64,000 nt of DNA from Alphaproteobacteria bacterium (GTDB taxonomy: Bacteria > Pseudomonadota > Alphaproteobacteria > Micavibrionales > UBA2020), in contig JAEUKT010000002.1 of NCBI GenBank assembly GCA_016794125.1, positions 1,365,769-1,429,768 of the forward strand, in the 5' to 3' direction. The position numbers and the translations under genes are program-made. The notes below the pieces were generated by a model, which searched no databases, had not been told where the DNA came from, and was given only the letters and a program-made list of their open reading frames with translations. Positions 6,596 through 50,609 of the stretch are shown here, in pieces; within the stretch, counting starts at the first letter, position 1, and each line of letters begins with the position of its first letter.

Positions 6596-9500
6596 TCATG
6601 AAACGATGATTTTGCCGCTGTCGAACAGGTCGTCGACCGTCAGGGTGCCAAGGCCGGTCAGCGACCCGACCGCCACAAATCCCGTGCCGCTGCCCGCGCC
6701 GTCGGCATCGACGCTGATGGTCGTCACGCCCTTCACGGTTGCGAAGGATACGTAATCGCTGATCTCGCTGATGCCCGGGGTGAAGCCGATCAGGATGTCG
6801 GAAATATCCAGCTTGTCGCCCTGCGCAATGCTGAAATCGGTGATCTTGTCGAAACTGGTGGTGTTGCTGAAGGCAAAGATATCCGCACCCGTGCCGCCCG
6901 TCAGCGTGTCGTTGCCGAACCCGCCGTCGAGGAAATCCGACCCCGCACCGCCATCCAGCGTCGAATTGCCGCTGTTGCCGTACATGGCGTTGTCGAGCGC
7001 GTTGCCGGTGGATTTTATATTGGAAACGCCGGTTTGATACAGGTCTTCGACATTGGCGGCGAGGGTGATCGTGACGCTGGTGCGCACGGTGTCGTGGCCT
7101 GCGCCCACGGCCTCGGTCACGCCGTCGGCCGCGTTGTCGATGATGTAGGTATCGTTGCCAAGCCCGCCATACATTTTATCCGCGCCCGCGCCCCCATCCA
7201 GCGTATTGTCGCCGGAGTTACCTGTCAGCGTATTGGCCAGCGCATTGCCCGTGCCGTCGATATTCGCGGTTCCCGTCAGCAGCAGTTTTTCGATGTTCGT
7301 GCCCAGCGTATAGGTGAATCCGACCTGCACGGTGTCGATGCCGCCATTCGTGGCCTCGATCACGACATCCAGAATGTCATCGACGAAATAGGTGTCGTTA
7401 CCGGCCATGCCGGTCATGGTGTCCGCGCCGGTGCCGCCGTCCAGCGTATTCGCGCCTGTATTGCCGGTCAGGCTGTTATTCAGGTCGTTGCCGGTCGCGT
7501 TCGCGGCGGCGGAGCCCAGCAGCAGCAGGTTTTCGACATTTGCGCCCAGCGTGAAGCTGAGGGTGGAGCGCACGGTATCGATGCCCTCGCCCGACGCTTC
7601 CTGCACCACATCGCCGAGGTTGTCGACGAAGTATGTATCGTCGCCGGCGCCGCCCGCCATGGTGTCGGCGCCCGTCATGCCGTTCAGGATGTTGTTGCCC
7701 GCATTGCCGGTCAGGATATTCGCCAGCGTGTTGCCGGTCGCGTTGATCGCGGCGGTGCCGGTCAGGGTGAGGTTTTCAAGGTTGAGGGCAAGCGTATAGG
7801 AAAAACCGGCCAGCACGGTGTCGATGCCGGCATTGGCGGCTTCGCTGATGCTGTCGGTCGTCATGTCGATGATATAGGTGTCATTGCCAAGGCCGCCGAT
7901 CAGTTTATCGGCGCCCGCGCCGCCGTCCAGCGTATTGTCGCCCGCATTGCCCGTCAGCGTATTGGCAAGCGCGTTGCCCGTGCCGGTAAATCCGCCCGCC
8001 GTGCCCGCGAAGACAAGCTTTTCGACGTTGGCCGACAGGGTGTAATTGCCGGTGATATAGGCGGTGTCGATGCCGCCCGCCGTCCCGGCGTCCTCGATAA
8101 TGACGTCGCCTGCGTCGTCGATGTAATAAACGTCGTTGCCCGCGCCGCCGATCAGGGTATCTGCGCCCGCAAGGCCGTTCAGCGTATTGATGCCGGATGT
8201 GCCGGTGATCGTATTGTCGCCCGCATTGCCCGTGCCGTTCAGCGCGCCTGTACCGAGCAGCACGAGGCTTTCGATGTTGTCGCCCAGCGTATAGCTGAAT
8301 GCGGCGCGCACCGTGTCGCTGCCTTCGTTTGCCTGTTCGATAATCACATCGGCCGCCGTATCGACGATATAGACATCGTTGCCGTCGCCGCCCGCCATCG
8401 TATCCGCGCCCGTGCCGCCGTCCAGCGTGTTGTTGCCGCTGTTGCCGGTCAGTGCGTTCACCAGCGTGTTGCCGGTGGCGTTCAGGTTGCCGGTGCCGGT
8501 CAGCGTGAGGTTTTCGACGTTCACTTCCAGCGTGCGCGACACGCCGGCATAAACGGTGTCGGTGCCGCCATTCGCGTTTTCGACGATCACATCGCCGAAA
8601 TTATCGACGACATAGGCATCGTTGCCGGCGCCGCCCGCCATGCGGTCCGCGCCCGCGCCGCCGTCCAGCGTGTTGTTGCCGCTGTTGCCGGTGAGGGAGT
8701 TGTTAAGCGCGTTGCCCGTCGCGTCGATCGATGCCGTGCCGGTCAGGGTGATGTTTTCGACATTGTCGTTGACCGTGTAACTGACGCTCGCCAGCAGGGT
8801 ATCCGTGCCTTCGCCCGGGTTTTCCAGCACGTAATCGCCGGCGTCGTTGATGACATAGATGTCGTTGCCCGTGCCGCCCGCGAAAGTATCCGCGCCCGGC
8901 GTGCCCGCCATGCTGTCGTTGCCGGCCGTGCCGCGCAGGGCCGAGCCGTAATAGGTGACATAGGCTTCGAGCGCTGTATAGGTATAGCTCTGGCCTGCGA
9001 ATTCAAACAGCTCGAAATCAATCAGCGTATCGATCACGGTATAACCCGTCGCATGTGTCACATAGACAAGGCTGGTGCTGACGAGGGAGAAGCTGAAGCC
9101 GCTGATATCTCCGGCATAGACGGCGGTGTCGGTGCCTGCGCCGCCGTCCAGCGTGTTCGTGCCGCGCCCGCCCGCCAGCTGGTTGTCGCCGCTATTGCCC
9201 GTCAGATTGTCGTTGCCGTCGCCGCCGAAAACATTGTCGATGCCGCTGATCGTCACGGCCTTGCCCGCGATCGTGCCGGTGCCGGCTGCAAGGTTCACGG
9301 TGCTGGCGGTCGTGACGGCGGTCAGGTTCAGCGTATCGCTGCCGCCGTCGGTGTCGGAAATCACGCTGCGCGCCGTCAGGTTCGCGCCCGAAAACGCCGC
9401 GAACGCGTTGGTATAGACATACACGTCATCCGCCGTCTGCGCATGGCCCAGAAAGGTCATGTTCCAGCTGGCCAGCGTGCCGGTGTCGTTGAGCTCGGTA

Positions 9501-11032
9501 TCCTGAATTTTCAGCGTCCAGGTGCCAAGGCTGCTTTCGCCCCAGCTGGCGTTGGTGGAAACGGTGAAATCGATGCCGCGCATGGCGCTGCCGCTGAAAT
9601 CGCCCGCCTGCTGCGTGCCCGGATGGTTGACGACGACGCTTTCCGTGCCGTCGGGGCTGACCAGCGTGACGACCAGATCGCCCGCCCAGCTGTGGTTAAT
9701 GTCCAGATGCACCTGCACATGCTCGATCACGATATCCTGCGTCACGCTGATGGATGTCGTGACGGTCGCGTTGTCGCGGATGGCAAGGTTGGGCGACGAT
9801 GTGGCGGTCGTAAACGTCGTCATGTTCGCCGATGTCTGCTGCAGCCCCCACAATTCGGCCAGCCGCACGGCGGCGAAGGCATCCGCCGCGCCGAAGCCGT
9901 AATCATGGCTGAAATGCAGCCCGCCGCCGTTCCAGTTGGTTGCGCCGTTATACTGCCATCCGGTATTGGTCGGGTCGTTATGCTGCGCGGAATAGGCAAG
10001 GATCTGCTGCACGTCGCGCCAGCCGAGGTCGGGATTGGCCTCCAGCATCAGCCCGATCACGCCGCTGACGACGGGGGCCGCGAATGACGTGCCGTCGACG
10101 GTCGCGTAACTGCCGTTTTCGTAGCCCGCCGCGCCCGTGCGGTCGGTCGTCAGGATGCCGACCCCGCCCGCCGATACCAGCAGCGCCGCGCCGGGCGTGC
10201 TGAACGACGCGACATGGCCGGTTGAATCGATCGCCGCAACGGTGATGGCATACGGGGAATTGGAGAAGTTGTGGTAGTTGACGTTGTCGCCCACATCGCC
10301 TTCGTTGCCCGCCGCGAAAACGATGCTTGTGCCAAGCCCGCCGCGCCCCTGGTCGACGAGGTTTTTCATCGCCGCGCCCAGATCCGCCATGCTGACGCCG
10401 CCCGATGTGCGCGTGTCGGAAAAATCGTCGGCATAGGGGCTTGTGTAACCCCAGCTGTTGTTCATCACATCGACCTGCGCCGTCAGAACGTATTGGAACC
10501 CCTGCAGCGTCTGCGCATCGGTGCCGGTATCGAAGGACTGGCGGATGCCGATGCCGGTCGCATCGAAGGCGACGCCCACGATGCCGCTGCCGTTATCGTC
10601 GGCGATCATCACGCCCATGACCGCGGTGCCGTGGCTGTCGTCGGCAACGGCGGGGGCGGCATCATAATCGTTCGACCCGACGTCGCGGTCGAGCGAGGTG
10701 TCGTAGTTCGGCGCAAGATCGGGATGCGTGTACTGGAACCCGTCGTCGAAATCGGCAAGGCGGATGCCCGCGCCGGTGTAATCCGGCCAGACGAGGTCGG
10801 CATGCAGCCCCCAGGTACCGGTCAGGTGCCATTCGGATGACAGCTGCGGATCGCTGGGCACGCCGCTGGTCATCGGTTCGATGGCGGCGGCCTGCGGCAC
10901 ATAGGAGGCAATACGGTCGGCGGCAGCCGCCAGCCGCGCTTTTGTGCCGGCTTCTTCGGATGCAATCTCGTCGAAAACGTCTTTTGTGTCGTCGCTATCG
11001 GCCAATCGAAAATCTCCGGAAAAGACCCGCAT
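6596..11032 (-). CDS. Secreted kexin-like S8 serine protease with P domain and RTX repeats
   Basis: A 1478-residue protein without a Sec signal, as expected for type I secretion. The catalytic domain (about 65-390) carries the triad: Asp96 in DFDDGF, His134 in DDSHGTAVMG and Ser316 in GTSFAAP, with oxyanion Asn243 in AAGNEGD. The VDDG-like Asp motif and the following P domain (about 410-530, ending GTWTLKIQDTELNDTGTLASW) place it with proprotein-convertase-like subtilisins. From about residue 600 there are calcium-binding GGxGxDxx nonapeptides arranged in eight copies of an 81-residue unit, then a serralysin-type end (DIFAFSNTTSFDKITDF) and the acidic, hydrophobic tail used as the uncleaved export signal. 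The start may be ATG 11032 or a TTG at codon 10 that has a GGAG 8 bases upstream. The exporter is probably the operon at 1-4118. Confidence 0.93.
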   Translation of the reverse strand: MRVFSGDFRLADSDDTKDVFDEIASEEAGTKARLAAAADRIASYVPQAAAIEPMTSGVPSDPQLSSEWHLTGTWGLHADLVWPDYTGAGIRLADFDDGFQYTHPDLAPNYDTSLDRDVGSNDYDAAPAVADDSHGTAVMGVMIADDNGSGIVGVAFDATGIGIRQSFDTGTDAQTLQGFQYVLTAQVDVMNNSWGYTSPYADDFSDTRTSGGVSMADLGAAMKNLVDQGRGGLGTSIVFAAGNEGDVGDNVNYHNFSNSPYAITVAAIDSTGHVASFSTPGAALLVSAGGVGILTTDRTGAAGYENGSYATVDGTSFAAPVVSGVIGLMLEANPDLGWRDVQQILAYSAQHNDPTNTGWQYNGATNWNGGGLHFSHDYGFGAADAFAAVRLAELWGLQQTSANMTTFTTATSSPNLAIRDNATVTTSISVTQDIVIEHVQVHLDINHSWAGDLVVTLVSPDGTESVVVNHPGTQQAGDFSGSAMRGIDFTVSTNASWGESSLGTWTLKIQDTELNDTGTLASWNMTFLGHAQTADDVYVYTNAFAAFSGANLTARSVISDTDGGSDTLNLTAVTTASTVNLAAGTGTIAGKAVTISGIDNVFGGDGNDNLTGNSGDNQLAGGRGTNTLDGGAGTDTAVYAGDISGFSFSLVSTSLVYVTHATGYTVIDTLIDFELFEFAGQSYTYTALEAYVTYYGSALRGTAGNDSMAGTPGADTFAGGTGNDIYVINDAGDYVLENPGEGTDTLLASVSYTVNDNVENITLTGTASIDATGNALNNSLTGNSGNNTLDGGAGADRMAGGAGNDAYVVDNFGDVIVENANGGTDTVYAGVSRTLEVNVENLTLTGTGNLNATGNTLVNALTGNSGNNTLDGGTGADTMAGGDGNDVYIVDTAADVIIEQANEGSDTVRAAFSYTLGDNIESLVLLGTGALNGTGNAGDNTITGTSGINTLNGLAGADTLIGGAGNDVYYIDDAGDVIIEDAGTAGGIDTAYITGNYTLSANVEKLVFAGTAGGFTGTGNALANTLTGNAGDNTLDGGAGADKLIGGLGNDTYIIDMTTDSISEAANAGIDTVLAGFSYTLALNLENLTLTGTAAINATGNTLANILTGNAGNNILNGMTGADTMAGGAGDDTYFVDNLGDVVQEASGEGIDTVRSTLSFTLGANVENLLLLGSAAANATGNDLNNSLTGNTGANTLDGGTGADTMTGMAGNDTYFVDDILDVVIEATNGGIDTVQVGFTYTLGTNIEKLLLTGTANIDGTGNALANTLTGNSGDNTLDGGAGADKMYGGLGNDTYIIDNAADGVTEAVGAGHDTVRTSVTITLAANVEDLYQTGVSNIKSTGNALDNAMYGNSGNSTLDGGAGSDFLDGGFGNDTLTGGTGADIFAFSNTTSFDKITDFSIAQGDKLDISDILIGFTPGISEISDYVSFATVKGVTTISVDADGAGSGTGFVAVGSLTGLGTLTVDDLFDSGKIIVS
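6990..8940 (-). repeat. Eight tandem coding repeats of about 243 bp (RTX units)
   Basis: Inside the protease gene a unit of about 81 residues recurs eight times: a pair of calcium nonapeptides (TLDGGAGADxMAGGAGND), a YxVDNxxDVIxE strand, GxDTVxxxxSYTL, NVENLxLTGTAxxxATGN and a linker NxLxNxLTGNSG. Copies differ at many positions, so this is an old array of functional repeats, not a recent expansion and not a CRISPR. Edges are approximate. Confidence 0.9.
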
Positions 11033-37734: not shown

Positions 37735-39549
37735 TTAACGCCTCGCCACCGGCGCTTTTTTTGGCAGGTTGTCGTTGCCGGTGCCGGGTTTGACGGCGCG
37801 GGCGCGGTATTGGGGGTTTTTCTCGATGTAGCCCTCGCCGAACGCGTCTTTATACAGCTGCTCCAGCATCGTGCGGTAAACGGGGTTCAGTGTGCTGATG
37901 CCGTTTTCGATGATGAAGGGGGAATTCGCGCCGCTGGCGATGCCGGTCACGCGGAACAGTTCCGCGCCGGACGGCGGCAGGTCGCCTTTTTTCAGGCTGC
38001 CGCTGCTGATTTTCACGGTGATGCTGTCGGCGGAAAGATCAACGGGCGAAATTTTCGCGTCTTCGCCCGCGAATTTCCATTCGAATGCGCCGCCCACTTT
38101 GCGGGTGACGGTGTAAACGCCGGCGGGCAGGTCGATCTGCACGGGGGTTTTGCCGTCATAGGCCGCGTCATGGGTCGCAAAAGCCTTGATGTAGAATGAG
38201 CCGGGGCCGGTCGCGTATTTCGCATGGATTTCGGCCGCGTTGTCGCGGATGGCGGACAGCAGGCTGAGGTTTTCCGCCTTTGTGAAATCGGCGTAATGCG
38301 CGAACCACGCCATGCGCGAGAGGCCCGGCACGTTGTTGTTTTCGGCATCGACGCTCATCTGGTCGGTCGGGCCCTGCTGGCGGTCGTTGATTTCGTTGAT
38401 CCAGATTTTGCCGCTGCGGTCGATGATGAGATCCGCGCCAGCCAGCCCCACCTTGCCGGACAGGCCCATTTTGCGGCCCAGCTTGTCGCCGATTTCGGTG
38501 ATCTGGCGCGCAATGTTTTCTTCGTACACATGGCCGATATTGTTGCCAACGCTGTCGCCGGGCTCATTGGCCAGCAGGCGGTCGCCCACAACCTTCAGCG
38601 TCGCGCGACCGGTGACGGAGAACACGTTGCCGGCGTTAATGCCGGCTTCCGCCGCATGCGCCTCGATCAGGGCGAGGTTTTGCGGGTCGGCGCGGTCGAT
38701 GCCGTCGGGCAGGTTGGTCTTGGTCACGCCGCGGCCTTCCTTGGCGGGCAGGGTGTTGCCGACGAAGAAGGACAGGTTTGCCTCGTTCCCCTCGACAAAG
38801 CGCACGACCTTGAACGGGATTTTGGATTTCGAGATATGTTTCACGAATTCATCGGCGGTCGCGATGAAGCGTGTCGGTTCGTAATTTTCGATGGTCGCCT
38901 GCACGACAACCTTGCCCGCTTCGTTCTTCATGCGGTGGTAAACCGCGCGGAGTTCCTTTTCCGGCAGTTTCGACGACACGACTTCCGTCGGGATGACGTA
39001 AGCTTCCAGCCCCGCTTCCTTCAGGATGTGCATCAGGTTGCCCTTGTTTTCAAAAAACAGGCGCGTGTTTTGTTCGTTGCTGGCGACGACATGGGTGTTC
39101 AGCTTGCGGTCGGCGATGTGCTTTTCCCAGCTGTCGGGCGGCGTGATGAAGGCGAAGATCGCGATGTCTTTGTCTTTCAGCAGCGCTTCGGGGATCGTAT
39201 CGACGATCTGTTCCGACATGCCCTTGGGGAACATGTTGATATAGGCGGTGGTGTCGAAATCCAGCCCGTGCTGCGGCACGTTCTTGAACGACGGCTTGCC
39301 TTCCATGCCGCCCACGATCACGGCCTTGCCGCCGACACCGTTGAAGTCGGACAGCAGGCGGCCCTGCGACGGGGAATAGGTGGGCATGACCATCGTCACG
39401 TCGTCGGCGCTCAGTTCCTTGGCCGTCAGCGTGAACGAGACATCAAGCCGCGTTTTCAGGCTGGTGTCGTCTTTTTTGACCGAAAACGAGGTGCCGGGGG
39501 CAGCGCCGGTATGTGCGGAAGTCAGGTTGAATTTGGGCTTGGCGGTCAT
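37735..39549 (-). CDS. Large ATP-grasp protein of unknown substrate
   Basis: A 604-residue cytoplasmic protein. ATG 39549 has GAGGAGG 5 bases upstream. The middle holds an ATP-grasp fold: the nucleotide lysine region VVVQATIENYEPTRFIATA, IPFKVVRFVEGNEANLSFFV, and the metal-binding end GLAGADLIIDRSGKIWINEINDRQQG, where Glu and Asn of NEIND would bind magnesium. ATP-grasp enzymes join a carboxylate to an amine or thiol through an acyl-phosphate. About 190 residues before it form a pre-ATP-grasp-like domain, and a C-terminal 170-residue beta-rich domain (PVQIDLPAGVYTVTRKVG) resembles no partner I know. A peptide or amide ligase of natural-product type is possible. There is no biosynthetic partner next to it. 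Confidence 0.7.
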   Translation of the reverse strand: MTAKPKFNLTSAHTGAAPGTSFSVKKDDTSLKTRLDVSFTLTAKELSADDVTMVMPTYSPSQGRLLSDFNGVGGKAVIVGGMEGKPSFKNVPQHGLDFDTTAYINMFPKGMSEQIVDTIPEALLKDKDIAIFAFITPPDSWEKHIADRKLNTHVVASNEQNTRLFFENKGNLMHILKEAGLEAYVIPTEVVSSKLPEKELRAVYHRMKNEAGKVVVQATIENYEPTRFIATADEFVKHISKSKIPFKVVRFVEGNEANLSFFVGNTLPAKEGRGVTKTNLPDGIDRADPQNLALIEAHAAEAGINAGNVFSVTGRATLKVVGDRLLANEPGDSVGNNIGHVYEENIARQITEIGDKLGRKMGLSGKVGLAGADLIIDRSGKIWINEINDRQQGPTDQMSVDAENNNVPGLSRMAWFAHYADFTKAENLSLLSAIRDNAAEIHAKYATGPGSFYIKAFATHDAAYDGKTPVQIDLPAGVYTVTRKVGGAFEWKFAGEDAKISPVDLSADSITVKISSGSLKKGDLPPSGAELFRVTGIASGANSPFIIENGISTLNPVYRTMLEQLYKDAFGEGYIEKNPQYRARAVKPGTGNDNLPKKAPVARR

Positions 39550-39944
39550 GGCTGCCTCCTCGGGTCGCAAAACGGGTTCAAACAAAAGCAAAGCTCTTCG
39601 CAGTAAACCCGTCAGCAAGCGGCCACCGGGCGTTTAGCACAAAAAGATCCGCCGTTACTTAACCTGCCTTGTCAGGTTTTATCCTGAGAGGGGCGCCCCC
39701 ATTTGTCGGGGGCCGCGGGCCATTGGTACGTACGATTGTTTACGTTTAAGCGATTCGCCCATGTAAATGCAAGGAAAAATCTTTCCCATATCCATTTTTA
39801 TCCGCGCGTTCCGCTGCACGGGATTTGCACAAAAACTGCGCGATAAATCCGCAACTCCGCCATCACCGCTGCACATCTGCCTGCCATGATGGTGGAAGCT
39901 GCGGCGCATTCCGCGTAGCGGCAAACGGGCAGGAGGATAACGGC
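39550..39944. other. Long intergenic stretch with weak hairpins only
   Basis: About 400 bases between the divergent ATP-grasp and alpha-2-macroglobulin genes. I see the small hairpin AACCTG-ccttgt-CAGGTT (39661-39678), GCGCCCCC/GGGGGCC (39693-39716) and the palindrome GTACGTAC near 39727. No convincing -35/-10 pair, riboswitch or protein gene was found. An 81-codon frame on the minus strand lacks a ribosome site and sensible composition. Confidence 0.5.
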
Positions 39945-39995
39945 ATGAATATTAAAACTATTTTTTCCAAGCCACATTCACGAATCCCGCCATGA
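39945..39995 (+). CDS. Possible 16-residue leader peptide upstream of alpha-2-macroglobulin
   Basis: AGGAGG at 39931-39936 lies 8 bases before ATG 39945, which opens MNIKTIFSKPHSRIPP and stops at 39993-39995. The stop overlaps an ATG (39992, ATGA) in the alpha-2-macroglobulin frame. It is the best ribosome site in the region, so translation may begin here and re-start on the big gene. It could also be chance. Confidence 0.4.
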   Translation: MNIKTIFSKPHSRIPP

Positions 39996-40051: not shown

Positions 40052-43000
40052 ATGAAATCCACCTTCCAGAAATTCTTCGCCGCCACATTGATGGCGGCTT
40101 TTTTTGCGCTTGCCGCGCCCGCGCTTGGCGATACGCCGCTGCCCGTGACCGCGAACAAGGTGGAAGGACCGGTGACGGGGCAGCTGCAGGACGCGATCAC
40201 CCTGAACATCGCCTATGACGGCGGCATTGTGACGAATACCGACAGCGTGGCGGTGCGTTTCTGCATCCCCTCGGTGCGGCTGCCCCGCACCTGCGATACC
40301 CCCGACCGCAAGCTGCATATGGGCGGCAAGCGCCAGCTGACCGGCATCGGCATCATGCCCCCCGTCGCCGGTGAATGGCGCTGGGACGGCGATTACAGCC
40401 TGCGCTTTACACCCGAAAAGGCCTGGCCGGCGGGCGAAAGCTTCCGCGTCGCCATCGACCCTGCCGTTTTCCCCAAAAACGTGGCGCTGAAGGACACGCA
40501 TTTCGTCATTCAGGCGGCGGCGCTGCGTGCGGATGTGGGATCTATCGAGTTTTTCCAGGATTTCAACAATCCCGACCTGCGCGGCGTTTCAACCGCGATC
40601 CACTTCAACACCCCCGTTGCGGCAGAATCCGTCAAAACCCACCTGTCTTATAGAATGGAGGAACTGGGCGAGGCCGCTAAGCCCGAAGACCGCAAGATTA
40701 TTTCAACGATCCCGAACCTGCCGTTCGAGGTGAAACTGTCCGAAGACGGGTTGACCGCCAATGTCACATCCCCCATCACCACTATGCCCGACAAGGAGCG
40801 TTTTGTGGTGGTCGATATCGCCGAAGGCATCACGGCGGCATCGGGCGGCAGGCCGCTGGGCGCGCCCGATCTGTCGAAAAGCAATCCGGAACGCCGCACG
40901 GGCCGCGTGCGCATCCCCAGCATTTACGACTATGCGGAACTCGAGGGCGTGCAGGCGACCATCGTGCAGGACGACCATTACGTGCCGTCGCAGACGCTGG
41001 TGATCGAAAGCAACGTGCCCAAGACGGGCGACGAGCTGGCCGCGAACCTGCATATCTACCAACTGCCCAAGGACAAGCCGCCCGCCGTGAAGGACGGGAC
41101 GCCCGAGCGCGATTACAGCTGGTCGAGCGCATCCGAAGTGACCGACGAGATTTTGAAGGCTTCGGAAGACGTTAAATTTACGCTGGATACCCGCGACGCG
41201 GCGCTGGTGCATGGCGTGAAATTCGATGCGGTGCCCGGCCGCTGGCTGCTGGTGCGCGTTTCCAAGGGCATGAAATTCAAAGGCGGTTACGTGCTGGGCG
41301 CGAACCATGACGATACGGTGGTTGCCCCCGAATACACGAAAGAAGTCAAAATCCTGAGCGACGGCGCGCTGATGAGCCTGAGCGGGGAGCGCAAGATGTC
41401 GCTCTATTCGCTGGGCGCGTCGAAAATCCGGTTCGAAGTGGGGCGCGTGCTGAACGACGATATCGCGCATCTGGTCAGCCAGACGGGCGGCAGCTTCCAG
41501 AGCCCGTACTTCAGGAATTATAATTTCGGACAGGAAAACATCAGCGAAAAATTCACCAAGGAGCTGGATCTGTCGGGCGCCGACCTGCGCAAGCCGCAAT
41601 TCAACGCCTTCAGCCTTGCGCCGTATTTGAAAATGCCGTCCGGTGAAAAGGGCGCGCAGCCGCCCAAAGGCAAGGGCTTGTTCTTCGTCACCATCAAGGC
41701 GCTGGCGAAGGATGCGGAGGGCAGGGAGCAGGAAGTGTCGAGCGACAAGCGCTTCATTCTCGTCTCCGACCTCGGCATCGTCGTGAAAACGGCGGCGGAT
41801 GGAAGCCAAGATGTATTTATCCAGTCGATTGCAAAAGGTATTGCGGTTGGTGACGCTCGCGTGGAAGTGATCGGTACCAACGGCGTTGCGGTCGCAACCG
41901 TGCGCACCGATGCGCAGGGCCATGCCGTGATCCCGCCATTGAAAGGCCTGATCGACGAAAAACGCCCCGTCGCATATATTGTGCGTCAGGGCGACGACAT
42001 GGCGTTCATGCCCTATGACAGCAGCGACCGTTCGCTGGATTATTCCAAATTCGACACCGACGGCATGAGCGCGTCGGATGCCGGCTTGCGCGCCTACCTG
42101 TTTTCCGACCGCGGCGTGTACCGCCCCGGCGAACAGGTGCATATCGGCATGGTCGTGAAGCAGGGTGACTGGGCAAAGGATTTGACCGGCGTGCCGCTGC
42201 AGCTGGAAATCACCAACCCGCGCGGGCAGGTGATCGACAACCCCGTCGTGAAACTGCAGGCATCGGGCGCGGCGGAATACAGCTTCAGCACGCGCGACAC
42301 ATCGCCGACCGGCAGCTATGCCGCGCGGCTTTACATCACCAATGGCGGCAGGACGGTTGACCAGTTGGGCAGCGTGAATGTGCGGGTGGAGGAATTTATC
42401 CCCGATACGCTGAAAATATCCACCGTCTTCAACAAACCCGCGCCCAAGGGATGGATGACGCCCGACGGGCTGAACGCCGAAGTGACGCTGGCGCATCTGT
42501 ATGGCGCGCCTGCCGTCGATCACCGCATCAAGGCGACGTTGCGCGTCGATCCCGCCGGTTTCAGCTTCAAGGAATATCCCGATTACGCGTTTTTCGATGC
42601 GGCGCGCACGGATGCCAGCTTCGACCAGTCGATCGGCGAAGCGCAGACGGATGCGGACGGACGCGCGGTGTTCGAGCTGCCGCTGGCGCAGTTCGGTAAA
42701 TCGACCTATAGGCTTGCCTTTGGTGCCGAAGGTTTCGCGCAGGATTCCGGCCGCAGCGTTTTTGCAAGCGGCAACGTGCTGGTATCCGCGCTGAAATACG
42801 TCGTGGGCGTGAAAACCGACGGCAATATCGGCTATATCAACAAGGGCGAACAGCGCGGCATCCGCCTGATCGCGGTCGATCCGCAGCTTGCGCCTGTTGC
42901 CGTGGCAGGACTGACGGCATCGGTGACGCAGGTCACCTATGTCTCGACGCTCATCAAAAACGAAAGCGGTGCGTATGAATACCGCTCCGTCGCAAAGGAA

Positions 43001-45841
43001 ACGCAGGTGTCGCAGTCGCCGGTCGACATTCCCGCAGCCGGGCTGGACTATAAACTCGACAGCGCAGCGACGGGAAATTACGTGCTGACGCTGGCCGATG
43101 CCGACGGTTTGACACTGCACAAGGTCAATTATTCCATCGTCGGTGAAGGCAACATGATCGACCATGCGCGCAAGGACGCGGTCATCAGCGTGCGCCTCGA
43201 CCGTGAAAAATACGCGGCGGGCGACACGATCAACCTCAGCATCACATCGCCCTATACCGGCACGGGGCTGGTGACGATTGAAACGGATAAAGTTCAGGCG
43301 TTCAAATGGTTCAGGACGAAAACCACCAGCACGGTGCAGTCGATTACCCTGCCGAAAAACTTCACAGGCAAGGGTTTCGTGAACGTGCAATTCGTGCGCT
43401 CGCTTGATTCAAAGGAAATCTATACCACGCCGCTTGCCTATGCCGTGCAGCCGTTTTTGGTCGATACCGCGACCATCGACAGCCGCATCACGCTGGCGGT
43501 GCCGGAGCGTATCAAGCCGGGTGAAGACCTTGCGATCACCTACAGCACGAAATCCCCGTCGAAAATCATCGTCTATGCGGTGGACGAGGGTATTTTGCAG
43601 TATGCGCGGTATAAAACGCCCGATCCGCTGGATTTCTTCGTCAACCGCCGCGCGCTGCAGGTGGCGACCGCGCAGATCCTTGATTTGCTGATGCCGGAAT
43701 ATTCGTTGCTCCGTGCCGCAACGGGTGGCGACGGCGGCGGGCCCGATGGACGCAGCGTCAACCCCTTCAAGCGCAAGACCGAAGCCCCCGTGGCGTTCTG
43801 GTCGGGCGTGATCGATGCGGGCAAAACGCCGCAGGTGCTGCATTACAAAGTGCCGGATTATTTCAACGGCAACCTGCGCGTGATGGCGGTTGCGGTATCC
43901 GATACCGCGATGGGTGCTGCTTCGACCAAGGCATTCGTGAAGGGCGATGTGATTATATCGCCCAACGTGCCGGTGTTCGCAGCGCCCGGCGATACCTTCC
44001 GCGTCGGCCTCAGCCTTGCCAATAATCTGGCGGGTTCCGGCAAGGATGCGAAAATCAAGCTGGTCGTCAGCCCGTCCGAACATCTGGAGGTTGTCGAGGG
44101 CGCGGAAAGCGACGTGACTGTTGCCGAAAACGCCGAGGCCAAGACCGCTGTCATGGTGCGCGCGAAAGACGTTTTGGGTGGCGCGACATTGACATTTACG
44201 GCGACGCTGAACGGCGTGACGGCAAAATATGAAGCGACACTCAGTATCCGTCCGCCGCTGCCCAGTATGACCGCGCTGCAAAGCGGCTATGTGGAGAAAG
44301 GCGACAAGACCGTAGCGCAGGACCGCGACCTTTACAGGGAATTCGCGCATGCCGACGCATCGGTCTCGACGCTGCCGGTCAGCCTGATCCCCGGTTTGGC
44401 GCAATACCTCGACCGTTTCCCCTATGGCTGCACCGAACAGACGGTCAGCCGCGCTTTCCCCGCCGTGACGCTGTACGGGCAGAAAGATTTGGGCGGCGAC
44501 AATACGGTGGTGACGGAAAGCGTCGTCAACACCATGCGCCGGTTACGCGAATTGCAGAACAGCCGCGGCGGCTTCGGCTACTGGTGGTATGGCGGCGAGG
44601 CGAATGATTTCGTCAGCGTCTATGCGCTGGATTACATGACACGCGCCAAGGAAAAACATCTGCCCGTGCCGGATGCGACTTTCCGCGACGCGCAAAATTA
44701 TGTGCGCGACATGGTTAACGGCGCGCCCGCGTCGCTGGACGAAGCGCGCGTGCAGGCATACGGCATCTATATCCTGACGCGTGGCGGCATGCTGACGGCG
44801 AATTACCTGCCGCATCTGCTGCAATACCTTGACGCGAATTATAAGGCCGAATGGAAAAACGACCTGACGGCGGTTTATATCGCGGCTTCGTACCGCTTGA
44901 TGCAGCTGGTGCCGGAAGCAAACGCGCTGCTGTCGGAATTCACGCTGGGTGATCCGGTTTACTGGCGCGAACATGCGCGATATGAAAGCAACTGGATGTT
45001 CTATAACAGCCTGAACCGGTATGCGCAGTATATGTCGGTCGTGTCCGACCATTTCCCCGACATGCTGGGCAAGCTGGACCGCAATATCCTGTTCCGCATC
45101 GCCAATTTCATCGGGGAAGGCAGCTATAACACGCTGTCGTCGTCCTATGCGATCATGGCGTTCAGCGCCTATGGGCAGGCATCGACCGGCGCTGTCGGCA
45201 GCAACCTGACCATCAGCCAGAAAGGCGCGCAATTGCCGCTGACGGGCGAGGTGGTGAAGCGCGCGGAACTGGCGCTGGAAAAATCGGATGTCGCCTTTGC
45301 AGGCGGCGGCGATTACGGGCTGTTCTACCAGATCGCAACCGACGGCTATGACCGCGACGCGGCCAAAAACCCGATCGAGGACGGGTTGGAAATTTCCCGC
45401 ACCTATCTGGGCAAAGACCACAAACCTGTCGCCGATGTCGCGCTGGGCGATACGGTCGATGTCGTGATCCGCATGCGCGCGCATGACGACAAGACGCTGG
45501 ACAGCATGGCGCTGGTCGATCTGCTGCCGGGCGGTTTCGAGCTGGTGCCGCAAAGCATCGCCAAGCCCGTCGTCGCAAGCGAAGACGGCGAGGAAGAAGC
45601 GGAAACCGCAGCCCCGGATACGTCTTGGCTGGATGGTAACCTGTGGCAGACCGAAGCCGTCGATGCGCGCGATGACCGCGTGATCGCCTTCGGGTCGGTT
45701 GCGGCGGACGAAGTGGTGTATCACTACAGTATCAAGGCCGTGAACGCGGGCAGCTTTACCGTGCCGCCCGCATATATCGAATCCATGTATGACCGCGGCG
45801 TGAAGGCGCGCGGCGTGACGGGGGTTATCACGGTCAAATGA
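40052..45841 (+). CDS. Bacterial alpha-2-macroglobulin with thioester motif
   Basis: A 1929-residue exported protein that traps proteases. ATG 40052 has GGAG 8 bases upstream and starts a classical signal peptide (MKSTFQKFFAATLMAAFFALAAPALG), so the protein is probably soluble in the periplasm, not a lipoprotein. A frame start at 39992 would add 20 residues. Macroglobulin beta-domains fill the first 1100 residues (YRPGEQVHIGMVVKQGD marks MG3-type repeats); the bait region is not defined by sequence; the thioester motif YGCTEQT is near residue 1460, followed by the alpha-toroid and receptor-like domain. The stop overlaps the pbpC start (ATGA), the standard alpha-2-macroglobulin/PBP1C pairing. 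Confidence 0.95.
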   Translation: MKSTFQKFFAATLMAAFFALAAPALGDTPLPVTANKVEGPVTGQLQDAITLNIAYDGGIVTNTDSVAVRFCIPSVRLPRTCDTPDRKLHMGGKRQLTGIGIMPPVAGEWRWDGDYSLRFTPEKAWPAGESFRVAIDPAVFPKNVALKDTHFVIQAAALRADVGSIEFFQDFNNPDLRGVSTAIHFNTPVAAESVKTHLSYRMEELGEAAKPEDRKIISTIPNLPFEVKLSEDGLTANVTSPITTMPDKERFVVVDIAEGITAASGGRPLGAPDLSKSNPERRTGRVRIPSIYDYAELEGVQATIVQDDHYVPSQTLVIESNVPKTGDELAANLHIYQLPKDKPPAVKDGTPERDYSWSSASEVTDEILKASEDVKFTLDTRDAALVHGVKFDAVPGRWLLVRVSKGMKFKGGYVLGANHDDTVVAPEYTKEVKILSDGALMSLSGERKMSLYSLGASKIRFEVGRVLNDDIAHLVSQTGGSFQSPYFRNYNFGQENISEKFTKELDLSGADLRKPQFNAFSLAPYLKMPSGEKGAQPPKGKGLFFVTIKALAKDAEGREQEVSSDKRFILVSDLGIVVKTAADGSQDVFIQSIAKGIAVGDARVEVIGTNGVAVATVRTDAQGHAVIPPLKGLIDEKRPVAYIVRQGDDMAFMPYDSSDRSLDYSKFDTDGMSASDAGLRAYLFSDRGVYRPGEQVHIGMVVKQGDWAKDLTGVPLQLEITNPRGQVIDNPVVKLQASGAAEYSFSTRDTSPTGSYAARLYITNGGRTVDQLGSVNVRVEEFIPDTLKISTVFNKPAPKGWMTPDGLNAEVTLAHLYGAPAVDHRIKATLRVDPAGFSFKEYPDYAFFDAARTDASFDQSIGEAQTDADGRAVFELPLAQFGKSTYRLAFGAEGFAQDSGRSVFASGNVLVSALKYVVGVKTDGNIGYINKGEQRGIRLIAVDPQLAPVAVAGLTASVTQVTYVSTLIKNESGAYEYRSVAKETQVSQSPVDIPAAGLDYKLDSAATGNYVLTLADADGLTLHKVNYSIVGEGNMIDHARKDAVISVRLDREKYAAGDTINLSITSPYTGTGLVTIETDKVQAFKWFRTKTTSTVQSITLPKNFTGKGFVNVQFVRSLDSKEIYTTPLAYAVQPFLVDTATIDSRITLAVPERIKPGEDLAITYSTKSPSKIIVYAVDEGILQYARYKTPDPLDFFVNRRALQVATAQILDLLMPEYSLLRAATGGDGGGPDGRSVNPFKRKTEAPVAFWSGVIDAGKTPQVLHYKVPDYFNGNLRVMAVAVSDTAMGAASTKAFVKGDVIISPNVPVFAAPGDTFRVGLSLANNLAGSGKDAKIKLVVSPSEHLEVVEGAESDVTVAENAEAKTAVMVRAKDVLGGATLTFTATLNGVTAKYEATLSIRPPLPSMTALQSGYVEKGDKTVAQDRDLYREFAHADASVSTLPVSLIPGLAQYLDRFPYGCTEQTVSRAFPAVTLYGQKDLGGDNTVVTESVVNTMRRLRELQNSRGGFGYWWYGGEANDFVSVYALDYMTRAKEKHLPVPDATFRDAQNYVRDMVNGAPASLDEARVQAYGIYILTRGGMLTANYLPHLLQYLDANYKAEWKNDLTAVYIAASYRLMQLVPEANALLSEFTLGDPVYWREHARYESNWMFYNSLNRYAQYMSVVSDHFPDMLGKLDRNILFRIANFIGEGSYNTLSSSYAIMAFSAYGQASTGAVGSNLTISQKGAQLPLTGEVVKRAELALEKSDVAFAGGGDYGLFYQIATDGYDRDAAKNPIEDGLEISRTYLGKDHKPVADVALGDTVDVVIRMRAHDDKTLDSMALVDLLPGGFELVPQSIAKPVVASEDGEEEAETAAPDTSWLDGNLWQTEAVDARDDRVIAFGSVAADEVVYHYSIKAVNAGSFTVPPAYIESMYDRGVKARGVTGVITVK

Positions 45842-48141
45842 AGCGGGTAAGGCGGCGCATTTTCATTGCCTGTGTGCTGGCGCTGCTGGTGCCGGCTGCG
45901 CTGTTCCTGGCATGGAAACCGCCGCTGCTGGAGGGCACGGGTTTTTCCCGCGCCGTGTTCGCGCGCGACGGGCAATTGCTGCGCCTGACGCTGGCGGGGG
46001 ATCAGGCCTACCGGCTGTTCACGCCGCTATCCGATATTCCCCCGCAGATGAAGGAAGCGGTGCTGCTGCACGAAGACCGCCATTTTTACAGCCATCTCGG
46101 CATCAATCCTGTTTCCATGCTGCGCGCGTTTTTCCAGACCTATGTCGCGGGCGGGCGGCGGCTGGGCGCATCGACGCTGTCCATGCAGCTGGCGCGCATC
46201 AAATACGGCATCAACAGCCGCCGCGTGGGCGGCAAGCTGTGGCAGATCGCGCGCGCCATGCAGCTGGAAATGCATTACAGCAAGGATGAATTATTCGAGG
46301 CCTACCTGAACCTTGCGCCATACGGTTACAACATCAACGGCATTGGTGCGGCGAGCTTTATTTATTTCCACAAACAGCCGCGCGATCTGACACTGCCCGA
46401 GGCGCTGACGCTGGCCGTGCTGCCGCAAAGCCCCGCCCGCCGCGCGCCGGAGCGTGGCCAGCCGGTCAAGGCGGCGCTGAACGACGCCCGCAACCGCCTG
46501 TTCGCCAGATGGGTGGCGGAACATCCCGAAGACGCGTCGCGCAGAATATTCTTCGCCCTGCCGTTGACCGTTTACGGCACGCGCGACCTGCCGTTCGATG
46601 CGCCGCATCTGGCGCAGGACCTGCTGGAGTCAACCGATGCGCGGCGCGTGACATCGACGATCAATATCAATATCCAGCGGCTGGCGGAAAAGGTGCTGCG
46701 CCAATATGTGCGCGACCGCCGCGACACAGGGTTGCAGAACGCCAGCATGATTTTGGTGAACACCCAGACGATGGAGGTGGAAAGCCTGGTCGGATCATCC
46801 GATTTCCACGACGCGCAGATCGAGGGGCAGGTGGACGGCACGCGCGCGCGCCGGTCGCCGGGATCGACGCTGAAGCCGTTCATTTATGCGCTGGGGCTGC
46901 AGCAGGGCGTGATACACCCCGCCAGCATCCTGGGCGACGCGCCCGCCAGTTACGGCAGTTATACGCCCGACAATTTCGAACGCGATTTCCGGGGACCGAT
47001 CAGCGCGCGCAACGCGCTGCGCTTCAGCCGCAACATTCCGGCAATACGGCTGGCGGCGCAGCTGAAATCGCCCGACCTGTACGAATTCTTGAAACAATCG
47101 GGCATCGCGCAGCTGCGCGACCGTAAAACATACGGCCTGTCGATCGTGCTGGGCGGGGCGGAGGTGACACCGCGCGAGCTGGTGTCGCTCTATGCCATGC
47201 TGGCAAATGACGGTGTTGAAAAGCCGCTGGCGTTCACGCGTGACGCGCAAAAGCCCGAAGGTAAGACATTGCTGAGCCCCGAAGCGGCCTTCATGACACT
47301 TGATATGATGGCCGATACGCCGCGCCCCTATGCCATGCAGGACCCGCTGAAGGTATATTGGAAGACCGGCACATCGAACGGATTCCGCGACGCATGGACG
47401 GCGGGCGTGTTCGGGCATTATGCGATGGTCGTATGGGTCGGAAATTTCAGCGGCAAAAGCAACCCCGCGCTGGTGGGCCTGCATGCCGCAGCGCCGCTGT
47501 TTTTCGCGCTGGCCGATGCGGTGCAGGGCATCGCGCCGCAGCGCGACCTGATCGCGGCCAAGGCCGCGCACCTGAATTTGCGCAAGACTCCGATCTGCGC
47601 CACCACCGGCGACCTGTCGCTGGATGACTGCCCTGCGCGCGCCAGTACATGGTTTATCCCGGGCGTGTCGCCGATTGCGCGCAACGATGTGTACCGCAAA
47701 ATCCTGGTGGATACCGAAACGGGCAAGCGCGCCTGCCGCATGACGCCGACCACCGTGTGGCGCACCTATGAAGTCTGGCCGAGCGATTTGTCGCAGGCGC
47801 TGCAGCGCGCGGGCATCAATAAACAGCCGCTGCCGCCGATGGGCGATGATTGCGATGCGGCGCAAGCGGCGGAGGGGCAGGCGCCCGTGATATTGTCGCC
47901 GCAGCCGAAGATCGAATATCACGCGCGCATCGACGATACGGCGGAGGCGGTGACGTTTACCGCCAGCGTCGATGGCGATGTGCGGGGCGTCAGCTGGTTC
48001 GTGGGGAATACCTTTATCGGGCAGGCCGCAGCCGGTGCCCCGCTGTTCTGGCGCCCGCAGCCCGGCACATATAATGTGCGCGCGATTGACGACCGCGGGC
48101 GCAGCGGTACGACCGTCATGAAGGTTTCGCTGGCGCAATAG
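45838..48141 (+). CDS. pbpC: Penicillin-binding protein 1C
   Basis: A 767-residue inner membrane protein with one N-terminal anchor, acting in the periplasm on peptidoglycan. The glycosyltransferase domain has Glu near 78 in LLHEDRHFYSHLGINP and ASTLSMQLARI; the transpeptidase domain has Ser343 in SPGSTLKPF, SRN near 397 and KTG at 509 (WKTGTSNGFRDAW). The C-terminal BiPBP domain (VTFTASVDGDVRGVSWFVG) is present. Always associated with alpha-2-macroglobulin, it is thought to repair walls breached by attackers. Confidence 0.96.
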   Translation: MKRVRRRIFIACVLALLVPAALFLAWKPPLLEGTGFSRAVFARDGQLLRLTLAGDQAYRLFTPLSDIPPQMKEAVLLHEDRHFYSHLGINPVSMLRAFFQTYVAGGRRLGASTLSMQLARIKYGINSRRVGGKLWQIARAMQLEMHYSKDELFEAYLNLAPYGYNINGIGAASFIYFHKQPRDLTLPEALTLAVLPQSPARRAPERGQPVKAALNDARNRLFARWVAEHPEDASRRIFFALPLTVYGTRDLPFDAPHLAQDLLESTDARRVTSTININIQRLAEKVLRQYVRDRRDTGLQNASMILVNTQTMEVESLVGSSDFHDAQIEGQVDGTRARRSPGSTLKPFIYALGLQQGVIHPASILGDAPASYGSYTPDNFERDFRGPISARNALRFSRNIPAIRLAAQLKSPDLYEFLKQSGIAQLRDRKTYGLSIVLGGAEVTPRELVSLYAMLANDGVEKPLAFTRDAQKPEGKTLLSPEAAFMTLDMMADTPRPYAMQDPLKVYWKTGTSNGFRDAWTAGVFGHYAMVVWVGNFSGKSNPALVGLHAAAPLFFALADAVQGIAPQRDLIAAKAAHLNLRKTPICATTGDLSLDDCPARASTWFIPGVSPIARNDVYRKILVDTETGKRACRMTPTTVWRTYEVWPSDLSQALQRAGINKQPLPPMGDDCDAAQAAEGQAPVILSPQPKIEYHARIDDTAEAVTFTASVDGDVRGVSWFVGNTFIGQAAAGAPLFWRPQPGTYNVRAIDDRGRSGTTVMKVSLAQ

Positions 48142-48189
48142 ACAGCCTGTAAATCATTGAAAAACAATGTAGATACGACCGACCAAAAA

Positions 48190-48240
48190 TACGGCAGTTG
48201 CCGTAATCGGCGGTTACGGGTATATTAACACTATATTAAC
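48190..48240 (+). promoter_or_regulatory. Promoter with overlapping palindromic operator
   Basis: TTGCCG (48198-48203), a 17-base spacer and TATATT (48221-48226) make a good sigma-70-type promoter. Over the -35 lies the palindrome TACGGCA-GT-TGCCGTA (48190-48205), and CCGTAA-N7-TTACGG (48201-48219) follows, giving three TACGG half-sites in alternating orientation. TATATTAAC is repeated at 48221 and 48232. It drives the gene at 48257. Confidence 0.6.
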
Positions 48241-48256
48241 CATTCGGGACGGGACG

Positions 48257-48583
48257 ATGAAGGATCGCAGCAACAGCCGCAAACTGACAGACATCCTGCT
48301 GGATGATGCGCAGACGCTGTTCATGACATCCGCGCCGATCATCCGTTACCCGATCGCGGCGGCGCTGGCGGCTGTGTCCGGTTACATGTTCCTGCATTCC
48401 CCGCCTTTTGAAATGTCTTACGCGCTGGCCTATGCGATGATCGCGGCGGTCTATGCGTGGGAATTGTCGGCGGGACTGCTGCTGATGGCCGTGATCTTCG
48501 GCATCTTCAAATTCCTTGCATCCCTGCCGCTGATCGCCGCGATTATCGTGGTGGTTGTCGTCGCCGTGTTTATCGGCTTTTAA
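48257..48583 (+). CDS. Small membrane protein of unknown function
   Basis: A 108-residue protein with a soluble start (MKDRSNSRKLTDILLDDAQTLF) and three to four hydrophobic segments, the last very Val/Ile-rich (ASLPLIAAIIVVVVVAVFIGF). No family recognised. It has its own promoter with a palindromic operator and lies after pbpC with a 115-base gap; its end overlaps the phosphoesterase end by 4 bases. The elaborate control region suggests a regulated, perhaps stress-related, role. Confidence 0.7.
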   Translation: MKDRSNSRKLTDILLDDAQTLFMTSAPIIRYPIAAALAAVSGYMFLHSPPFEMSYALAYAMIAAVYAWELSAGLLLMAVIFGIFKFLASLPLIAAIIVVVVVAVFIGF

Positions 48584-49350
48584 CCCACATTCACCGGCGC
48601 GCCCTGCGGATCGAAGGTCAGCGCACATTCATACGCGCCGTTCTTCACATAGCCCAGCTGGTTCGACATGATCTGCGTGCGGCCGATTTTCTGGCGGTCG
48701 CATTCATGCGTGTGGCCGTAAAACCAGAAATCGGGCTGGTATTTATCGATAACGGGCAGCATGTCGAATGAATTGAAACCCGGGGTGAGGGGGCTGCCCT
48801 TGTAAATCGTATCGGGCGGCTCGCAGGGCGCGTGATGCGTGATGACGATGCGCGGGCCGGTAACGGGCGTTTCCAGCCATTGCAGCAGCTTCGCCTTGAA
48901 CGCTGCATGCAGCGGCAGCGTATCGGCGGGCGTCAGCAGCTGGCCGTCGTCGCGGGTGATCAGCTTGTAGTCATTCATGCGCCCCGCCGCAACCGCCATT
49001 GATTCCGCGTTTGCGCCGTTGAAATCGGTCCACATCGTGCCGCCGAAGAAATTCACGCCCGCAATCGTGATGGCTTCGTCGCGCAGCAACCTTACATTCG
49101 GCAGGTTTTTCGCAAGCCAGAGCTGGAAACCGTCGATCAGCGGCAGCATCGACTTGCCTTCGTAATATTCGTGGTTGCCCGCCACATACAGCACAGGCCG
49201 CTGCCAGCCGTTCAGGAAGACAGCCAGAGGTTCGGGCTGGCGCATGTTCAGGATATCGCCCGACAGGATCATCAGGTCGGCATCCGATTGCGGCGCAGTC
49301 AGGTCTTTGGCGTATTCAAGATGGATGTCGCTGAAGCTGATGATTTTCAT
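48580..49350 (-). CDS. Calcineurin-like metallophosphoesterase
   Basis: A 256-residue cytoplasmic hydrolase with all five metal-binding motifs: FSDIHLE, LSGDIL, VAGNHEYY, ITHHAP and YGHTHEC. Substrate unknown; the family ranges from nucleotidases to nucleases. Its start overlaps the serpin stop (ATGA), so it is the second gene of a serpin-phosphoesterase pair. Confidence 0.9.
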   Translation of the reverse strand: MKIISFSDIHLEYAKDLTAPQSDADLMILSGDILNMRQPEPLAVFLNGWQRPVLYVAGNHEYYEGKSMLPLIDGFQLWLAKNLPNVRLLRDEAITIAGVNFFGGTMWTDFNGANAESMAVAAGRMNDYKLITRDDGQLLTPADTLPLHAAFKAKLLQWLETPVTGPRIVITHHAPCEPPDTIYKGSPLTPGFNSFDMLPVIDKYQPDFWFYGHTHECDRQKIGRTQIMSNQLGYVKNGAYECALTFDPQGAPVNVG

Positions 49351-50609
49351 TGCGGTGTCATTTCATTGTTGGGTTTGTTGACCGCGCCGATAAACAGCAC
49401 CGTGCCGGTCTGCACATCCTGCAGCGCGAAGACGAAGGAGCGGTCGAATTTGATATTGACGGTCTTGGGCGGATCCATCGGCATGGCGGAGCCCGCCATC
49501 GTCATGGTGGTGACGGCGGCGGCTTCCGATCCTTCTTCGTCCGTCTTGAACACGATGTCGTGCGACACGCTGCTGATGAACAGCGGCTGCGACTTCGCAT
49601 CGACCATATGGCGGAAATCGGCCACGCCGGTGAAGGCGGTCTTGATGCCCATGTTTTGCAGCACGGGCACAAGGTCGTGATGCTGCTTGATGTCGATATG
49701 CGGCAGTTCGACCGTGCCAAGCGCGCGTTCGTATTGCGCATCGTTCAGCCAGACGGGCAGCATCATATCGCCCTGCGTCGCCAGAAAATCGCGCGCGGAA
49801 ACCTTGGCATCGTTCGGGCGCAGCAGGACAAGGCGCATCGTTTGCGAATCTTCCGTGCCATAGGTGAGGGAGACCGCTTCATACGCTTCGTTCGACATGG
49901 CGCGGATATCGCCTACATGGTTGTATTCCTGATGCATCATCGGCGTCTTGAATTTTGCGCCGCCATCGGCGGTGAAGGTTTTTTCTTCGGTCAGTTTTTT
50001 GTCGAACGGCATGACCCATTTGCCCTTGAAATAGAGCGCGCTTGCCAGCACCATCGCGTCGTCGGGGTTCAGCTGCTGGATGACCTTGGTAATCAGGCCT
50101 TTTGTGTTGTCGGACGCCCATGTGTTGATCTTGCCGACGACGGCTGAACCGGCGAAATCCTCGCTGCTGATTTCCGCATTGAAATTCGCCTTCGCGCCGC
50201 TGGTGTAATCGGCCGACAGCGTGGCGGCGTTTTTATTGACCCAGATGCCGTTTGCAGTCAGCAGATCGACATGTCCCTTGTTCGCGTTCAGGATGGTGTC
50301 GTTCAATTGCTTCAGGCGCGGGCTTGCGTCCTTGGCGATATCGGCGTTCTGGAACAGCGCGGCAGAGAATTCATCATGCGTCGCGCCCGCAGCGCCGGAT
50401 GCCGCCAGCGCCATGTTGGTATAGATGTTGTAGGGCGACAGGATCATGTTGTCGGATTTGTCTTCCTGCCTGGCAATCGCCGACTGCGCCATTTTCAGCG
50501 TCACGATATTGGCGTTCAGTTCGCCGCCCGCCGGAATGGCCAGCACAAGCGCATGCGCGGCGGTGGCGGTCGCCAGCAATGCTGCGGCGGCGGTGATAAA
50601 TTTTTTCAT
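49347..50609 (-). CDS. Bacterial serpin (serine protease inhibitor), exported
   Basis: A 420-residue serpin with signal peptide MKKFITAAAALLATATAAHA, so it acts in the periplasm or outside. Family landmarks: SPYNIYTNMALAASGAAGATHDEF near the N-terminus, ALYFKGKWVMPFD, and the C-terminal FDRSFVFALQDVQTGTVLFIGAV. The reactive-loop hinge at 358-366 is EEGSEAAAV, the small-residue pattern of inhibitory serpins. The loop from there to PPKTVNI is about six residues longer than in alpha-1-antitrypsin, so the cleavage residue is uncertain (Ser375 by simple counting, or a Met nearby). Serpins are uncommon in this bacterial group. Confidence 0.92.
   Translation of the reverse strand: MKKFITAAAALLATATAAHALVLAIPAGGELNANIVTLKMAQSAIARQEDKSDNMILSPYNIYTNMALAASGAAGATHDEFSAALFQNADIAKDASPRLKQLNDTILNANKGHVDLLTANGIWVNKNAATLSADYTSGAKANFNAEISSEDFAGSAVVGKINTWASDNTKGLITKVIQQLNPDDAMVLASALYFKGKWVMPFDKKLTEEKTFTADGGAKFKTPMMHQEYNHVGDIRAMSNEAYEAVSLTYGTEDSQTMRLVLLRPNDAKVSARDFLATQGDMMLPVWLNDAQYERALGTVELPHIDIKQHHDLVPVLQNMGIKTAFTGVADFRHMVDAKSQPLFISSVSHDIVFKTDEEGSEAAAVTTMTMAGSAMPMDPPKTVNIKFDRSFVFALQDVQTGTVLFIGAVNKPNNEMTPQ

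Follow-up and report, generated by a model that had tools for sequence, protein, structure and literature searches.

The pairing of an alpha-2-macroglobulin (A2M) with penicillin-binding protein 1C (PBP1C) is the recorded arrangement for type I bacterial A2Ms, and joint defence and wall repair have been proposed for it (PMC4498604, PMC3328433). Described examples are ECAM (YfhM) with PbpC (PBP1c) in Escherichia coli and SaA2M in Salmonella. The A2M locus analysed here resembles these in its CxEQ thioester, in having the PBP1C gene directly behind it, and in arranging its domains alike, with bMG3 first and the MG domain of the C-terminus last. It differs in size (about 1929 aa versus about 1650 for ECAM) and in the thioester itself (CTEQ versus CLEQ), and whereas ECAM is a lipoprotein, this A2M has no lipobox. 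A2M–PBP1C is a textbook bacterial pair, and neither of the inhibitor families at this locus, A2M or serpin, is new. For serpins, both secreted and intracellular kinds are known in prokaryotes (PMC8233489, PMC10090351).

The locus lies in a stretch of 64,000 nucleotides (the window) from a genome of 3.16 Mb that is 99.95% complete (G000). We take the organism to belong to family f1 of the order Micavibrionales, Micavibrio itself being placed in another family, f4. The first-pass annotation had placed A2M, PBP1C and a serpin close together, and gene calls and Pfam and TIGR matches agree with it. The features are as follows, with the supporting matches in brackets.

422-2653, plus strand: type I secretion ABC transporter
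2565-4118, plus strand: HlyD-like adaptor
6596..11032, minus strand: RTX subtilase (Peptidase_S8, P-domain, RTX repeats, T1SS target domain)
40052..45841, plus strand: A2M of ECAM/YfhM type, 1929 aa (Pfam and YfhM structure matches)
45838..48141, plus strand: PBP1C (TIGR02073; Transgly, Transpeptidase and BiPBP_C in Pfam)
48257..48583, plus strand: small hydrophobic protein of 108 aa, also in G002 (98% identity) and G005 (74%)
48580..49350, minus strand: calcineurin-like metallophosphoesterase (PF00149, 1.9e-12)
49347..50609, minus strand: serpin, predicted to be of inhibitory type, with Sec-type signal MKKFITAAAALLATATAAHA (PF00079, 1.5e-79)

A reading-frame check found no internal stops in the A2M, PBP1C, serpin and subtilase genes. 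On the plus strand the start of PBP1C overlaps the stop of A2M by 4 bp, and the A2M so has the pbpC neighbour of a type I bacterial A2M; on the minus strand the serpin and phosphoesterase genes likewise overlap by 4 bp. The two pairs are convergent and form separate units: the closeness of A2M and serpin noted earlier holds, but they are not one unit. No Pfam family matched the 108-aa protein in a Pfam search, and beyond the serpin lie cinA-like, map and radC genes. Beside the A2M, 37735-39618 encodes a large protein with weak ATP-grasp similarity that is 98% identical in G002.

The probable explanation, in our judgement, is that two independent anti-protease units have been joined here, both acting on proteases that reach the envelope, and that their adjacency carries no function. 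Gene identities, the hinge and thioester motifs, gene order and co-occurrence counts were read directly; export, inhibition, targets and the lack of function in the adjacency are what we infer. A periplasmic A2M would offer its bait region to any protease breaching the outer membrane, and once cut would collapse round the protease and link to it via the CTEQ thioester, with PBP1C, anchored in the inner membrane, repairing the cell wall. The serpin, exported by Sec, would inhibit serine proteases, each molecule being used only once: cleavage of its loop would let the loop insert into sheet A, and the protease would be held as a dead acyl-enzyme. The targets would most likely be foreign proteases, from prey, competitors or host, and the two units would have come together in the common ancestor of the window species and G002. 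The first-pass annotation had both proteins trapping serine proteases by different mechanisms. That description suits the serpin, but A2Ms trap proteases of every class, serine proteases being one, and the restriction to the serine class is dropped for the A2M.

Seven Pfam families were found in the A2M, in the order bMG3, MG2, bMG5, bMG6, A2M_BRD, A2M and bMG10, so that the MG domains, the bait-region domain and the A2M/TED region of type I bacterial A2Ms are all present. The thioester motif is YGCTEQ, and its CTEQ (residues 1460-1463; 44429..44440, plus strand) fits the CxEQ pattern. The closest solved structures are those of E. coli YfhM (4rtd, 5a42 and 4ziq; E about 1e-65), with Salmonella A2M likewise among the best solved relatives; the sequence match to these relatives, ECAM and SaA2M alike, begins only at residue 556. 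By eye, the N-terminus MKSTFQKFFAATLMAAFFALAAPALG looks like a Sec-type signal from which the lipobox cysteine, and with it the lipoprotein anchor of the ECAM subgroup, is absent; an alternative in-frame ATG lies upstream at 39992. As far as the sequence can be read, the missing lipobox rules out ECAM-type anchoring, not membership of the A2M family. The putative bait region is the segment LLRAATGGDGGGPDGRSVNPFKRKTEAP (43706..43789, plus strand; residues 1219-1246), which is glycine-rich and varies in length and sequence among relatives. A basic NPF-x-RK motif closes this segment and is kept in distant relatives despite the variable remainder.

PBP1C matches TIGR02073 at equivalog level with 755.6 bits (cut-off 494). 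A PBP1C gene directly follows a related A2M in eight other genomes (G021, G022, G048, G058, G083 and G139, plus G075 and G100), and a serpin never does. A genome-wide family search found three A2Ms in G000, of which the other two share 17-19% identity with the window A2M. They lie at 15.7 kb of contig C2 (CVEQ; L092:6763-12675) and at 698 kb of C4 (CWEQ; L093:4240-12479), and a PBP1C-like gene also stands behind the CWEQ copy. We considered the window-type A2M as a family-wide trait and rejected this, since a full-length search of 18 genomes found it only in G000 and G002; its identity with the family's remaining A2Ms is 17-22%.

The subtilase at 6596-11032, which the first-pass annotation called an exported subtilisin and tied to the two traps, is real. 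It has D/H/S catalytic motifs at residues 94, 132 and 314, ten stretches of RTX repeats (PF00353) and a T1SS C-terminal target domain (TIGR03661, 48.9 bits; cut-off 17.6), and no Sec signal was seen by eye at its N-terminus, all as in an RTX substrate of type I secretion. The ABC transporter and HlyD-like adaptor at 422-4118, 2.5 kb away, are likely its exporter. Type I secretion bypasses the periplasm, and the link to periplasmic traps is weakened accordingly.

One alternative to two units facing foreign proteases is that A2M and serpin shield the cell from this subtilase, since other bacteria have periplasmic inhibitors against their own exported proteases. We regard it as doubtful. Of the genera in the order, all 7 with a serpin have a subtilase, as do 24 of the 47 others (Fisher p 0.016), and the RTX subtilase is the only S8 protease found in G000 by the genome-wide family search; the two trypsin-family matches there are frames of 475-503 aa, which we take to be the usual HtrA/DegP size. 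In genus g7 (G020, G022) a subtilase with a Sec-type signal stands divergent beside A2M–PBP1C, and the basic NPFKRK at the end of the A2M bait might, speculatively, suit a kexin-like P-domain subtilase. The RTX subtilase should nevertheless miss the periplasm on its way out, and it lies 30 kb from the traps. No subtilase was detected in G004 (96% complete), where the exported serpin is present, nor in G002 (84% complete), and from P8 to P8' the exported serpin offers no basic residue but a distal Lys, unlike kexin/furin targets. With export that skirts the periplasm and a serpin loop that has no basic P1, a role of the traps against the RTX subtilase is possible but unsupported; given the type I export and the G004 serpin, we keep a dedicated guard only as a rival reading, and the tie between subtilase and traps is weak. 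The g7 subtilase (L081:4621-12985 in G022; L082:1-8024 in G020) also ends in an autotransporter-like C-terminal Phe.

The exported serpin is covered in full by PF00079 (positions 9-370 of 370, E 1.5e-79). Its P17-P9 hinge is EEGSEAAAV (49512-49538, minus strand), which fits E-[EKR]-G-[TS]-E-A-A-A-[AV], and the reactive-centre loop (49458..49538, minus strand) continues after the hinge with TTMTMAGS|AMPMDPPK in canonical numbering. The AlphaFold model is of moderate confidence, with a mean pLDDT of 76 and loop residues 376-387 uncertain, and a Foldseek search recovered the serpin fold, with miropin as best match (E 3e-31, TM (target) 0.92). The intact hinge and the match of the modelled fold to miropin agree with the earlier description of the serpin as inhibitory-type. 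That it has lost inhibition and taken another role is very unlikely in our view. Compared with alpha-1-antitrypsin, the loop has about six extra residues between hinge and strand 1C, and the P1 residue is not confidently assignable, falling at AMPM|D by alignment to alpha-1-antitrypsin and at MAGS|AM by canonical count from the hinge. Against such a loss, the hinge is nearly invariant across all Micavibrionales serpins, and the literature takes this motif as a mark of inhibitory competence (PMC8233489). A tree of 34 serpins groups the genus's four exported copies (G000, G002, G004, G005) in one clade, with support 100/100. The G002 copy (L066:13930-15180) is 73% identical to the window serpin where neighbouring genes are 90-99% identical; the ends and the loop match and two inner blocks differ, which looks like a mosaic allele. 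In G004 (L062:9750-17001), two large similar exported repeat proteins stand behind the exported serpin.

For the order as a whole we sampled 142 genomes, mostly fragmented drafts in which neighbourhoods may be missed; G022 (one contig), G003 (7) and G139 (6) are unfragmented enough to be clear. Serpins were found in 17 genomes, A2Ms in 29 and subtilases in 65. Uncorrected for kinship and genome size, A2M is present in 13 of the 17 serpin genomes versus 16 of the 125 serpin-less ones (Fisher p 1e-7), or by genus in 5/7 serpin-bearing versus 10/47 other genera (p 0.014), and subtilase in 13/17 versus 52/125 genomes (p 0.009). A2M and serpin are adjacent in only 2 of the 13 genomes with both families, namely G000 and G002, close relatives whose A2Ms are 97% identical. 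The order of serpin and phosphoesterase is retained in G002 and G005. G005 keeps serpin, phosphoesterase and the 108-aa gene, but does not align with the window beyond 48181, a point 40 bp after the end of PBP1C; there a helicase-nuclease-type gene set takes over. In G004 the serpin stands at cinA-map and A2M was found nowhere in the genome; G001 and G003 (99% complete) have no window-type A2M, and their cinA-map has no adjoining serpin. G000 itself carries 4 serpins in 2 loci, 3 A2Ms and 1 subtilase, and when two serpin and three A2M loci are placed at random, 2.9% of trials bring a pair together as closely as here. Because of this figure, closeness by itself is weak evidence, although the same estimate may still be compatible with selection for closeness.

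From the Micavibrionales counts and the comparison of gene order, we therefore conclude that the co-occurrence of the families is real and the adjacency a recent local event, probably arisen by accident. The co-occurrence could mean a functional link, and since the families co-occur in the order, two independent envelope anti-protease defences are likely. The first-pass annotation, which had called for a check of co-occurrence, fares well at the level of families and not at that of neighbourhoods. Its idea that the envelope is guarded against proteases is likewise plausible from the Sec-type signals seen by eye, the inhibitory signatures and the family co-occurrence; the clustering that prompted it is confined to those two genomes. 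A single envelope-defence island with selected adjacency is highly improbable and was rejected for its unconserved neighbours: the families do co-occur and two species retain the adjacency, but the serpin and A2M–PBP1C lie on opposite strands, are adjacent only in close relatives, and each stands without the other elsewhere, the serpin unit in G004 and G005 and A2M–PBP1C in the eight genomes listed above.

The other three serpins of G000 stand in tandem at C2:809020-812779 (L013:8960-12850), between acyl-CoA synthetase genes and pheT/pheS, and by eye have no signal peptides. Similar triplets occur in G001, G003 and G005, and G002 has two such genes where a contig ends. Among the signal-less Micavibrionales serpins, a Glu class (loci L013, L061, L007, L070, L074, L084 and L077) has VTTAVMTLE at P9-P1 and Cys or Ser at P1' in canonical numbering. 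The loop of this class is identical between families f1 and f2, where the core is 60-61% identical; averaged over the class, identity is 85% in the loop and 63% in the core. For a second class, ending A|T, the values are 69% and 62%, and between the two classes 37% and 59%. Serpin loops are normally more variable than the body; because the Glu-class loop is more conserved than the core, opposite to the usual pattern, the simplest reading would be a conserved internal target. In genus g7 some A|T-class serpins have a possible upstream signal sequence, and their location is uncertain there. We can tentatively picture a shield in two compartments, rather unlikely as it stands, in which signal-less serpins, their loops identical across families of the order and their cores 60-70% identical, neutralise a conserved internal protease and the window's exported serpin is a derived branch redirected to the envelope.

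The interest of the locus lies in its setting. Few Alphaproteobacteria have a serpin (9 of 385 sampled genomes), yet they occur throughout the window's genus, with one to four in each sampled genome. Less ordinary than the closeness of A2M and serpin is that this lineage keeps as many as four serpins, which seem to be divided between two compartments of the cell. To our knowledge, the natural targets of bacterial serpins are largely unknown in the field, and the signal-less serpins, through their conserved loops, offer a concrete lead to one. Micavibrio, which belongs to Micavibrionales, is a predator that attaches to its prey. In M. aeruginosavorus, prey metalloproteases reduce predation via attachment to prey and not via predator viability (PMC6145908). 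The same family searches found no serpin and no A2M in M. aeruginosavorus, and the literature searched yielded no paper linking serpins with Micavibrio. A Micavibrio-like predatory lifestyle for the window's organism was set aside, the family being a different one and lifestyle evidence not found.

By analogy with human SerpinB9 (PI-9), which guards killer lymphocytes from granzyme B, the target of a two-compartment shield might, for instance, be the cell's own attack enzyme released too early. Like the Glu-class tandem serpins, SerpinB9 has no signal peptide and an acidic P1 by canonical numbering (PMC11222584); it belongs to a different kingdom and serves as a working analogy, not as a claim of membership. 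The exported serpin is like miropin of Tannerella forsythia in fold, export, intact hinge and long loop, with about 25% identity and a different loop sequence. Chloropin, the siropins, Pnserpin and tengpin combine PF00079 with an inhibitory hinge as the window serpin does, and G000 differs from these prokaryotic cases in carrying four serpins in one genome, three of them in tandem without a signal peptide.
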